A stretch of 64,000 nt of DNA from contig NZ_CP072648.1 of NCBI RefSeq assembly GCF_018304825.1, positions 2,277,501-2,341,500 of the forward strand. The letters are read 5' to 3'. This stretch comes from Chloracidobacterium validum. Lineage in GTDB: Bacteria > Acidobacteriota > Blastocatellia > Chloracidobacteriales > Chloracidobacteriaceae. A model generated the notes under the pieces. The model had not been told where the DNA came from. It worked only from the letters and a program-made list of their open reading frames with translations, and did not search any database. Within the stretch, counting starts at the first letter, position 1, and every line of letters begins with the position of its first letter. Below are positions 32,831 through 55,030 of this stretch, piece after piece. The position numbers and the translations under genes were made by a program.

Positions 32831-32905
32831 ACGTGCCTCTGAAAAGTTTCTTTGATGGCCTGAAACCGGTCGTTCACAGGCCAGGAATGCCGATGCCACG
32901 CTTGT

Positions 32906-33015
32906 AACACTCTGGCTTGCCCAAGTTGACGTACAGGCAGGAATGCCTGTGCTACTTTGCAACACTCTGGCTTGCCCAAGTTGACGCACAGGCAGGAATG
33001 CCTGTGCTACCTTTT
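32906..33015. repeat. Two tandem 55-bp REP-like units
   Basis: Two 55-base copies start at 32906 and 32961 (AACACTCTGGCTTGCCCAAG...). Each contains the imperfect palindrome ACAGGCAGGAATGCCTGT. Partial copies flank them (32874-32905 and 33016-33030), and a related fragment lies at 42820-42850. They lie between the helicase fragment and the convergent SMP-30 gene. Confidence 0.85.
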
Positions 33016-33026
33016 CAAGCTCTGGC

Positions 33027-34100
33027 TTACGGATTGAGCGGCAGGACGCCAATCCCCCGATCTTCCAGCGTTCCCAAGTAAAGTCGCCCATCGTGCTCGA
33101 CAACGTTGGTCACCGGCGCAAAGGCCGTTGGCGCCGGGTCTTGTAAATTCTTGACGACTTCGCTGCGCTCATTCACCGCGATGACAAAACCATAGTGATC
33201 CGGTTTGGGCTGAAAGAGGCGTGGCAGCCGAAGAACCATCTTGCGCCAGAACGGTTGCGGTAGCAGCCGGTCAAGAACAACGTTGCGCCGCGCGAAAAGC
33301 GCCACCCAAAAGACCCCATCCCGTCCGGCCGAAATGCCATCGGGAAAGCCCGGCAGGTTTTCAATCAATGGCTCAACCTGGCCGCGCCGTTCACCAGCCA
33401 ACCAGTAGCGAAGCACCCGATACTTTGCCGTTTCCGTCACGACCAAAAACTGCTGATCAGGGCTGACCGCAACGCCATTGGCAAAATACAGGTTATCCAG
33501 AATGACGCGCGTGGTCTTGGTTGCCGGGTCGTAAGCCAGCAAGCGCCCATTCGGACGGTGTTCAAGAAAGTCAAGCCGGTATTCAGGCTGGCTAAACTTC
33601 CACGAGGCATCGGTGAAATAAATCGTCCCGTCGGCTGCAATGTCGAGATCGTCGGTGAACTTGAACGGCTTGCCGCCCGCTTCAACGCTGAGGACATTCA
33701 CCGTCCCATCCGGCGCGACCTCCAGCAGTCCGCGCTGACAATCCGCAACGATCAGATAGCCGCGCCGGTCAAACTTGAGTCCGAGCGGTCGCCCGTTGGT
33801 GACGGCGAATCGTTCGGGAGCGCCACCCGCAATCGGCATGCGGTAAATGACGCCATCCTTTGCGCCGGCATAGATGCGCCCATCCGGGCCAATCGCCACG
33901 TCTTCCGATCCCACGATGGCTTCCGCCCCACGGCGCTCGACGCCGGACAGCACGCTGTTGACGGCATATACGCCTTCAAGTTTTGGGGTTGGTGGCGGCG
34001 TCCAGGCAGCAGCGTCAATGCTGACCGGATAGAAAAGCAGGTAGAGTATGCCAAGCAACGTGATGACGGCCAGTCCGATGACGAAGTTCCACAGCTTCAA
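33027..34100 (-). CDS. SMP-30/strictosidine-synthase-like beta-propeller protein
   Basis: A membrane-anchored six-bladed propeller. TTG 34100 is preferred because GGGAGG lies 6 bases upstream; a GTG at 34142 has no such site. A transmembrane segment (FVIGLAVITLLGILYLLFYP) opens the protein, and propeller motifs follow: GPDGRIYAGAKDGVIYRM, LGLKFDRRGYLIVADCQRG, IAADGTIYFTDAS and LPGFPDGISAGRDGVFWVA. Relatives are lactonases, strictosidine synthases or arylesterase-like proteins, so the substrate is unknown. It is likely exported and tethered to the outer face of the inner membrane. Confidence 0.85.
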   Translation of the reverse strand: MKLWNFVIGLAVITLLGILYLLFYPVSIDAAAWTPPPTPKLEGVYAVNSVLSGVERRGAEAIVGSEDVAIGPDGRIYAGAKDGVIYRMPIAGGAPERFAVTNGRPLGLKFDRRGYLIVADCQRGLLEVAPDGTVNVLSVEAGGKPFKFTDDLDIAADGTIYFTDASWKFSQPEYRLDFLEHRPNGRLLAYDPATKTTRVILDNLYFANGVAVSPDQQFLVVTETAKYRVLRYWLAGERRGQVEPLIENLPGFPDGISAGRDGVFWVALFARRNVVLDRLLPQPFWRKMVLRLPRLFQPKPDHYGFVIAVNERSEVVKNLQDPAPTAFAPVTNVVEHDGRLYLGTLEDRGIGVLPLNP

Positions 34101-53267: not shown

Positions 53268-53621
53268 ACATCACTCCCAATGGTAAAAAAGGCCTACCTT
53301 GGTCAAACGATGGGCGGTGGTTAGCTCACAAAGCCGGCAGGCTTCTGAAAAAACCAGCGTGCTTGCGCGGCATCCACGGTTTCTGGTGGGTGAGGCTATT
53401 CTACGTATCATTCCAGCCACGCTGTGCGTTCCTACCGGAACCGCCATGCGATGTCAAATAGCACCAAACCTGCCTCACCCCCTTGAGGACGTGCCTGAAA
53501 AGTCAGATGTGACGGGTTGTCAGGATGGGGCTGGCAGGAGCGTTCGCAAACCATCACAAGCCAGCCGCAACCCGCCTTTTATTTGGTCGCTAGCTGGTTA
53601 TTTGGCGCTAGCTGGGGGCGT
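53268..53621. other. Intergenic region between glsA and the Rpn-like gene
   Basis: This 354-base gap probably holds the glsA promoter. Near its right end two direct copies of CGCTAGCTGG (about 53588-53597 and 53606-53615), each with the palindrome GCTAGC, lie just after the Rpn-like stop and could form a terminator-like structure. A plus-strand open frame across it is only the shadow of the next gene. Confidence 0.5.
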
Positions 53622-54575
53622 TTACGGTGTGTCTGGTTTTCGCTCCTGCAGTAGTTTGGCCAGATACGCTTGGATTTCGTCGGCTGATAAACCCTTCAGC
53701 CTTTCCTCTGGGGCTAACCCCTTGAGTCGCTCCTCGGTGGGAATGTCCCTGAGTCGCTCCTCGGTAGGAATCTGCTCGAGCAGTTTCTCCATCGGGAGCG
53801 CCTTGAGCAACTCTTCGTCCGGTAGCCCTTTGAGGCGTTCCTCCACAGGAATATCCCTGAGCAGTTCCTCAATCGGAATCTCCCGCAAGATTAACTCCCG
53901 CCGGAGTTTCCGAATGAACTCCGGCATCGTCTCCGCCACAAACTCTTCCACCGTGTACGGCATCGCCAATCCCTCCGACTGATAGTACAACCACAACCGA
54001 TCTAGTACCGAACTGGTATCCGACCGCTTCAGATGAAAACACCGGGCAGCGCGACGGACCTTGTCCGCTACCCCGCTGAACATCCCCCACAGCGCATTCT
54101 CCGGCGTGTCCCGAATCTCGCTCAACACAATCACCCGGATGCCAAGCGTCCCAAAGCCCAGATGGTAAACCCCTGGTTTGGTCGCATCAATCCGTTCCAA
54201 CTTGACTTGACCATCGAGCTTTTCGGGAAAGCGGGTACAGACGGCATAGAGCGCCAGTGCCGACTTGGGCAGCCAAGTATTCGTTGAAGAAACCTGCTTG
54301 CGGTAGTTGACGGCATGACCAACGAACTCTTCGATGGCATCGTCGTCGAGCGCCTCGCGCAATGACTTGTACGTGATGAGGTTGTGGTCGGCGAGGTGGT
54401 CGAGACCGTCAGGGAGTGGGACGTGGATGTCACCAGGGGCTTTGCGGACGACCACGACATCGAGGAGTTGCTGACGCAGGGAGAGGTCTTTTTCCAACTC
54501 GACGATGAAGGGAAGGTCGGAAAAGAAGTCGGCCAGCGCAACGCCGAACAGCCGATGCCACCTGAGATTGCTCAT
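53622..54575 (-). CDS. Rpn/YhgA-like PD-(D/E)XK nuclease-family protein
   Basis: A 317-residue protein like the Rpn ('recombination-promoting nuclease') and DUF4351-type proteins often labelled putative transposase. The N-terminal core (WHRLFGVALADFFSD, ELEKDLSLRQQLLDVVVVRK, ALYAVCTRFPEKLDGQV) fits the restriction-endonuclease-like fold. After residue 230 the tail is a run of eight 9-residue units (53664-53879). These families are found in many copies and are horizontally mobile, but no inverted repeats or partner gene mark a transposon here. Confidence 0.8.
   Translation of the reverse strand: MSNLRWHRLFGVALADFFSDLPFIVELEKDLSLRQQLLDVVVVRKAPGDIHVPLPDGLDHLADHNLITYKSLREALDDDAIEEFVGHAVNYRKQVSSTNTWLPKSALALYAVCTRFPEKLDGQVKLERIDATKPGVYHLGFGTLGIRVIVLSEIRDTPENALWGMFSGVADKVRRAARCFHLKRSDTSSVLDRLWLYYQSEGLAMPYTVEEFVAETMPEFIRKLRRELILREIPIEELLRDIPVEERLKGLPDEELLKALPMEKLLEQIPTEERLRDIPTEERLKGLAPEERLKGLSADEIQAYLAKLLQERKPDTP
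53664..53879 (-). repeat. Eight 27-bp units (9-residue periodic tail)
   Basis: Consecutive units read IPIEELLRD, IPVEERLKG, LPDEELLKA, LPMEKLLEQ, IPTEERLRD, IPTEERLKG, LAPEERLKG and LSADEIQAY. The period is exactly nine residues with no gaps. Two central DNA units differ at only a few bases, which allows slipped-strand change of tail length in frame. Confidence 0.92.
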
Positions 54576-55030
54576 AAGCGATTTACACTCCCTTGCCGGG
54601 AAGCCTTCATGCCTTTAGTGACCTTTGTGGTCAGCCAAGTGCGTGGCGTGGTGGTGATGAGAACGGCTCGCAGGCTTAGTAAGTATTCATAACAGGCGCA
54701 CCATGCCACCATCCATTCACAACCCACCCGTTGACTTGCCAGACATACCTTGCCCGGCACGCTGCCTTCGCCTATTGTCGCAGGTGGTCGTCGTCCGTTC
54801 TATGCCGCGCGTGCTGGGCGCAAGTGTTTGGGCCGATGCCGTTTGAACGGGAAGCCGCGGCGAACTCGCGCCCGCGCCCGGTGCTATGTGCGCTGAGCTA
54901 CGGCGCGACGCTAGGTTGCCCACCTGTCTATGCAGGTTCAAACGACGCGCCACGACGGCGGTGGTGGTTGGCGACGACCGCCTTCTCCTGTGCCGCGGCG
55001 GCTTTCGCGCCGCGTGGTTGGTTCTGCTCC
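54576..55030. other. Divergent intergenic region before coaX
   Basis: These 455 bases separate the Rpn-like gene and coaX. A plus-strand frame joins coaX from 54731, but its 100 extra residues resemble no protein and precede the true pantothenate-kinase start. No repeats or RNA genes were recognised. Confidence 0.5.

Follow-up and report, generated by a model that had tools for sequence, protein, structure and literature searches.

The minus-strand gene at positions 53622-54575 of the window, the 64,000-nucleotide stretch of the Chloracidobacterium validum genome analyzed here, appears on balance to be a gene within a gene, in which a nuclease toxin is encoded together with a nested small partner that varies along with it. 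At the level of sequence, the gene begins with a domain of predicted nuclease-like fold, carries a conserved internal ribosome-binding site and start codon, and ends in an array of 9-residue repeats that varies stepwise in length among relatives, some of which are followed by stand-alone modules of the tail. The original prediction for this locus had recognized the repeat variation and, in part, the solenoid character of the tail, and had overlooked the internal ribosome-binding site and start.

A nuclease-like domain and a 9-residue repeat array

The full-length gene (L form) is a 317-residue frame from the list of open reading frames, with a nuclease-like N-terminal domain followed by a tail of 9-aa repeats. 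Eight units of 27 bp, with the consensus (L/I)PxEERLKG, occupy positions 53664-53879 (minus strand) in phase with the reading frame and without gaps, exactly where they had originally been placed. The units read IPIEELLRD, IPVEERLKG, LPDEELLKA and LPMEKLLEQ (units 1-4), and IPTEERLRD, IPTEERLKG, LAPEERLKG and LSADEIQAY (units 5-8), the last of them degenerate, and a further 13 residues (LAKLLQERKPDTP) lead to the stop codon. Residue identity between units averages 0.44, whereas shuffling these 72 residues 20000 times never gave more than 0.22, and the self-matches of the tail at offsets 3 to 18 are most numerous at 9 (39 matches) and 18 (26). At the DNA level the units are on average 0.56 identical to one another (0.37-0.85), and the array is not reported by Tandem Repeats Finder; the periodicity first described as perfect is hence perfect in its gapless period of 9 aa, but not in its sequence. 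Within the window gene itself no copy-number change is visible. Scans of the window protein against Pfam, NCBIfam and PADLOC assigned it to no family, and relaxing the Pfam threshold to an E-value of 5 added one match, which lies on the tail and is a spurious repeat hit. Directly downstream of the stop codon (53579-53615), an 18-19 bp direct repeat (TTATTTGGTCGCTAGCTGG) occurs twice, and a scan of 53500-54700 for promoters of the sigma-70 type, the one type sought, found none.

The N-terminal domain (residues about 6-166; 54078-54560, minus strand) has a PD-(D/E)XK-like fold as judged from AlphaFold2 modeling and VIA-align comparison, and a nuclease activity is predicted for it with modest support from the model and the sequence motif. 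In the full-length AlphaFold2 model (35 sequences, mean pLDDT 80), the domain comprises a helix (6-18), three strands (23-27, 40-45 and 64-70), a second helix (78-95) and a further strand (107-113), an order that contains the alpha-beta-beta-beta-alpha-beta core. The pLDDT of the domain is 83-96 by block, except for residues 1-10 (71) and 31-40 (60). Asp39 (54459-54461, minus strand), the putative catalytic acid ahead of the second core strand, is conserved in 35/35 relatives and lies where confidence in the modeled domain is lowest (pLDDT about 60). The half-motif (T/S)68-x-K70 (54366-54374, minus strand) closes the third core strand, with T or S in 35/35 and K in 35/35, and Glu83 (54327-54329, minus strand), a putative relocated carboxylate in the following helix, is likewise invariant (35/35), at a distance of 13 positions from K70 in all 35 sequences. 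A K-x12/13-E spacing is typical of Cfr10I-type enzymes, and Bse634I is a restriction enzyme with a PD-XXK-E site. The order of D39, K70 and E83 in the sequence fits the PD-XXK-E layout that PMC551604 describes for Cfr10I, NgoMIV and others, in which the carboxylate is relocated and the lysine kept, and the window family would share with Cfr10I and NgoMIV the relocated glutamate after the xxK strand.

Structural comparison with the window model is consistent with this assignment at a modest level. Foldseek returned no match below an E-value of 0.001, the first being MspJI (0.021), and a profile search of solved structures retrieved epsin only, at an insignificant E-value of 0.035. The VIA-align matches, among them McrC, EndoMS, AF1548, LmuA, EcoT38I, MspJI, FokI, Cap4 and Bse634I, are mostly proteins that we take to be PD-(D/E)XK nucleases, and the best reaches a Z-score of 6.8 over 122 residues at 4.3 A, a modest value within the range that the tool calls common. 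Some matches are non-nucleases, such as an RNA polymerase I subunit and the rhomboid N-domain. Since all Z-scores remain below 8, the PD-(D/E)XK assignment rests also on the motif. The likeness to PD-XXK-E restriction enzymes is structurally weak (Z 4.2-4.7 for Bse634I, Cfr10I and BsaWI), and the variable repeat tail and the internal start are found on the side of the window family alone.

In the AlphaFold2 models the tail forms roughly one short helix per 9-aa unit, with block pLDDT values of 60-80 in the full-length model and of 43-74 in a tail-only model (pLDDT 63), and a fold search with the latter gave nothing significant, MgtE coming first at an E-value of 6.1. Among the four tails scored against MgtE_N (PF03448), those of relatives L019 and L020 reach 45.5 and 43.8 bits, above the Pfam cut-off of 25.9, which those of the window and of L010 do not attain; 5 of the 35 aligned family members match MgtE_N at an E-value of 5 or better. 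Pfam matches among the 35 relatives are repeat-like or single chance ones in the 25 of 45 families listed. The tails of L019 and L020 share with the MgtE_N domain units of the LxxLPPEER type, but the window tail does not match it, no transporter is present here and the repeat count varies. A superhelix of short helices is our best guess from the models for the structure of the tail; the solenoid initially proposed is thus backed by the helix-per-unit pattern, and weakened by the low pLDDT and by MgtE_N scores that pass the cut-off only in two relatives.

A probable internal start of translation

Internal starts from which RpnS antitoxins are made are described for the Rpn nucleases of E. coli by Zhong et al. 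(2023; PMC10327210), and because of this precedent the internal start of the window gene was tested for conservation. The minus-strand sequence just ahead of the tail is tcGGAGGGattggcgATG, that is, a Shine-Dalgarno sequence GGAGGG (53971-53976), which includes the GAG codon of Glu201, then seven bases and an in-frame ATG (Met205; 53961-53963). The ATG opens a nested in-frame frame (S form; 53622-53963, minus strand) that would encode an RpnS-like protein of 113 aa, a putative antitoxin. The matching stretch in L002, a paralogue from the same genome whose product is 74% identical to the window protein, reads ctGGAGGGcttggcgATG.

Relatives were collected by scanning genome contigs with two N-terminal peptide patterns, which sampled pattern carriers only and gave 53 loci. 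An alignment of 35 relatives shows E201 and M205 without exception, but all 35 had been picked with a regular expression that contains the methionine, as had the other early sets of 47 and 51 sequences. These 35 were retained from 44 sequences by leaving out three loci from the genome search, two copies with internal deletions and four close relatives. The methionine motif was also found in 63/63 distinct ORFs from several phyla selected by an N-domain profile; selection required an N-domain match to the profile end and at least 75 aa beyond it, a complete N-domain not being demanded, and a tail profile had served to fetch some of the loci, with duplicates removed on 100 aa of context only.

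The codon usage at Glu201 provides evidence beyond the amino acid itself. Its codon is GAG in 51/51 aligned relatives, where 28.9 would be expected from the codon usage of each gene, while the other 19 glutamate columns are mixed (modal codon 50-84%), and among 176 columns Glu201 is the only one fixed for a single codon. It ranks fourth of the 176 by column z-score, three other columns standing higher; relatedness inflates z. This test kept 51 sequences and the tail-length comparison 53, both by a laxer deduplication. In a wider set of 86 sites, which includes pieces of five further genomes, a glutamate lies four codons before the methionine in 68 sites, five in 10 and three in 5, and is absent from 3; wherever it is present it is encoded by GAG (83/83), indicating that this core of the ribosome-binding site is kept at sites with a shifted codon position. 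L011, for instance, lacks one codon between Glu and Met and retains the Met. The set derives from 89 distinct tail matches, three of which have no located methionine (two ORFs that end earlier and one that is decayed, L034 frame 4294).

Complementarity to the anti-Shine-Dalgarno sequence points in the same direction. At the 63 sites with an N-domain in the same ORF, a match of at least 4 bases occurs in 58 (36.9 expected from synonymous recoding) and one of at least 5 bases in 29 (16.9 expected), the other 34 having none of that length. In 25 representatives less than 60% identical, a subset of the 35 aligned relatives, a match of at least 4 bases is present in 23 (17.4 expected; equaled in 3/2000 simulations, p=0.002) and one of at least 5 bases in 16 (8.2 expected; 0/2000 simulations, p=0.0005), and the other internal Met codons of the same ORFs show such matches in 19/87 and 2/87 cases, respectively. 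The recoding test is underpowered for single genes: of the sites from 71 ORF matches, after 24 were left out (region absent or duplicate), 1/47 falls below p=0.05 alone. The Shine-Dalgarno signal is therefore a collective one, found across relatives in their sequences rather than gene by gene. Taken as sequence evidence, these patterns make an internal start of translation in the window gene well supported and highly probable.

Tail variation, stand-alone modules and the proposed function of the nested frame

The length of the tail module ranges from 57 to 153 aa over 53 rows, three of which (L006, L008 and L009) represent one gene. Among 77 pairs with >80% identity in the N-domain, tail length differs in 67, and in 62 it does so by a multiple of 9 aa; in a second set, deduplicated otherwise, 39/43 pairs differ, 36 of them by a multiple of 9, and identical tail sequences are found in 0/43 pairs, even at 99.5% upstream identity. 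The pairs share members and are not independent. The tail of L002 contains seven consecutive (I/L)PxEERLK(G/V) units with a DNA identity of 0.81-1.00 between neighbors, which looks like a recent expansion. The expectation that copy number could change without a frameshift, and that unit number would prove inconstant when relatives were compared, is hence borne out across the family and by L002. Lengths are equal in 2/11 close pairs within genomes and in 2/32 between genomes, so that paralogues are not shown to avoid equal lengths, and a ladder with a different length for each paralogue, suggested by the copies of Chromatiaceae ppb02 (76, 85, 94, 103, 112 and 121 aa), was not upheld, given the two equal pairs among the 11. 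At L033:2980-6700, two full-length copies are 99.5% identical upstream of the internal Met and differ in tail sequence.

Seven modules consisting of the tail only lie 2-204 nt behind a parent gene at six loci (L010, L012, L014 with two, L021, L033 and L034). Over the 20 nt that precede the ATG, the modules of L010, L033 and L034 match their parent at 90-100% identity, and the likeness fades within 60 nt; over these 20 nt, identity is 55% for L012 and L014 and 50% for L021, and less beyond. The L021 module is without a clear Shine-Dalgarno sequence, and its parent has an N-domain split between frames. The ATG of the L012 module stands 2 nt past the stop of the parent and that of the L014 module 9 nt; at L014 three modules follow one another, with nine bases between a TAG stop and the start of the second and of the third, and the Shine-Dalgarno sequences of its two stand-alone modules are weak. 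A third copy at L033 resembles the long protein at its beginning and passes from there straight into the tail, the nuclease part being absent. In a genus mate of the window organism (G003), a 67-aa ORF (L077:1420-1623) starts with MPY, is degenerate in the middle and ends in the C-terminal cap, and looks like a decayed stand-alone tail module.

In the mechanism proposed here, translation from the first ATG (54575) would yield the L form, a PD-(D/E)XK-type nuclease with a helical tail of 9-residue repeats, and translation from the second in-frame start (GGAGGG-N7-ATG, 53961-53976) would yield the S form, the tail alone, of 113 aa. The repeats would let the S form bind the L form at its tail and keep the nuclease inactive, as RpnS does with RpnL. 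The number and sequence of the units would serve as a matching code between cognate L and S forms, which are read from the same DNA and hence change together, and paralogues would drift apart in specificity through the gain or loss of 27-bp units. We infer that both proteins are made, that the L form is toxic and neutralized by the S form, and that the purpose of the arrangement is defense. Granted the internal start, inhibition of the large protein by the small one is likely by analogy with known systems. The tail had also been suggested to act in targeting; with an internal ribosome-binding site and start that would make the tail a protein of its own, a role of the repeats in antitoxin or oligomer specificity is the more likely.

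The evidence for the internal start would fit equally well if the small product were a structural or stoichiometric subunit of a nuclease complex, in the manner of Cas11d or the short form of McrB, instead of an inhibitor, and the tail may, with low confidence, be an oligomerization solenoid. However, the extra stand-alone copies and the third L033 copy without a nuclease part resemble the RpnS antitoxins reported in PMC10327210, and the fast variation in length also resembles RpnS and would not be expected of a purely structural subunit; we regard a subunit as unlikely. Still less probable is that no second product exists and that the tail is a solenoid that sets oligomer size or binds a partner, its copies changed by slippage, with Met205 and Glu201 constrained by the protein. 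The invariance of both residues and the variation of the tail by whole units agree with such a constraint, but it leaves unexplained both the use of GAG (51/51, and 83/83 with shifted positions) and the stand-alone modules that begin at the internal ATG.

The family is patchily distributed. Homologues occur in records titled Planctomycetota, Armatimonadetes, Chromatiaceae, Azospirillaceae, Lentisphaerae and others, and the family is present in 2/297 Acidobacteriota genomes and, as a full gene, in 1/7 genomes of the genus, that of the window itself. The glutaminase-coaX interval of genus mates G005, G002 and G001 is present and contains no match to the window protein, which implies a gain or a loss of the gene at this place. 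Tail matches number 6-28, fragments included, in each of five genomes of purple sulfur bacteria (reached through L013, L028, L037, L032 and L026), and several copies of the family are broken. The 7.6-Mb draft of ppb02 (G327) has 28 tail matches, again with fragments included, several of them at contig ends, which indicates that the family may cause assembly breaks. Horizontal spread of the family may be inferred from this distribution; a tblastn search of 72,556 plasmid records gave no match at 1e-5, and a scan of viral contigs gave 12 pattern matches with no relative among them. The ORFs adjoining the window gene are, as far as we recognize them, housekeeping genes, and the gene presumably does not lie in a defense island. 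Elsewhere in the window, at 32875-33028, nearly three tandem copies of 55 bp contain the palindrome CACAGGCAGGAATGCCTGTG; with 21 matches in the genome, 3 in the array and 18 elsewhere, several of them clustered, this is an interspersed palindromic repeat.

A mobile or selfish nuclease family, in which tail variability would be a by-product of recombination among copies without any toxin-antitoxin function, would agree with the patchy distribution, the empty interval, the multiple tail matches in the five Chromatiaceae-type genomes and the broken copies, but is very improbable as a full account, as by itself it leaves the conserved internal ribosome-binding site and start unexplained, and it is otherwise compatible with the toxin-antitoxin reading, rpn genes being themselves reported as patchy and horizontally mobile (PMC10327210).

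Relation to Rpn and other nested genes

The designation of the window protein as Rpn-like holds for its architecture, but not for detectable sequence kinship. In hhalign, a profile of 35 members compared with RpnA, B, C and E of E. coli K-12 obtained a probability of 0.2% (E-value 0.3), that is, no detectable kinship. TIGR01784 is matched by 0/35 members at an E-value of 1 and is absent from all 12 NCBIfam families matched, and the Rpn family is absent among the 25 of 45 Pfam families listed, the other 20 matching at most one member each. With RpnL-RpnS of the recombination-promoting nucleases (COG5464/TIGR01784/PF04754), as portrayed in PMC10327210, the window family would share an N-terminal PD-(D/E)XK-type domain, according to the model, and, according to the sequence, an in-frame start inside the gene from which the C-terminal part is made by itself, together with a variable number of repeats, extra downstream stand-alone copies of the small gene (reported there for RpnES and RpnCS) and a patchy distribution. 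The repeats of Rpn vary in number in units of 4 aa, however, whereas those of the window family vary in units of 9 aa and probably form short helices instead of one lengthened helix, as suggested by low-confidence models. Furthermore, the window family has the PD-XXK-E layout, unlike the E. coli Rpn proteins, in the four aligned members of which an EHQ half-motif is invariant. In the Rpn system, an extra repeat in one partner is reported to abolish neutralization (PMC10327210).

The genome of the window contains three matches to TIGR01784 below cut-off, and two of these, L064 (1384-2454) and L065, which both lie outside the window, have 4-aa repeats of the GLQQ/GLEQ type, with an ATG shortly before the repeats that is preceded by GGGAGGG or AGGAGGT. 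On their sequence features, these two are probably classical RpnL/RpnS genes, so that the 4-aa and 9-aa kinds would coexist in one genome. The short form of McrB is another small product from within a larger gene. Cas11d, made from inside cas10d and cited as an example in PMC10327210, is likewise a second protein from an internal start of the same gene, but it acts as a subunit on which CRISPR effector activity depends and not as an inhibitor. For the 9-aa repeat family, a literature search of open-licence papers found no description.

These comparisons raise the tentative possibility, which we place somewhat short of even, that a second nuclease family with no detectable kinship to Rpn has come to the same nested toxin-antitoxin arrangement as Rpn, using a repeat of 9 residues in place of one of 4, the number and sequence of the units being a recognition code copied into both proteins, and that lineages with many paralogues, such as the purple sulfur bacteria, build mutually insulated pairs. 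The family in question is represented in the window by a protein assigned to no Pfam, NCBIfam or PADLOC family, yet its tail is matched 28 times, fragments included, in one purple sulfur draft genome. If the proposal is correct, antitoxins nested in nuclease genes would not be peculiar to Rpn but would exist also in a family without detectable kinship to it, and fast-changing repeat tails would serve as a marker by which further cases could be found. It would then also become testable how a repeat array holds specificity between two proteins read from the same DNA.
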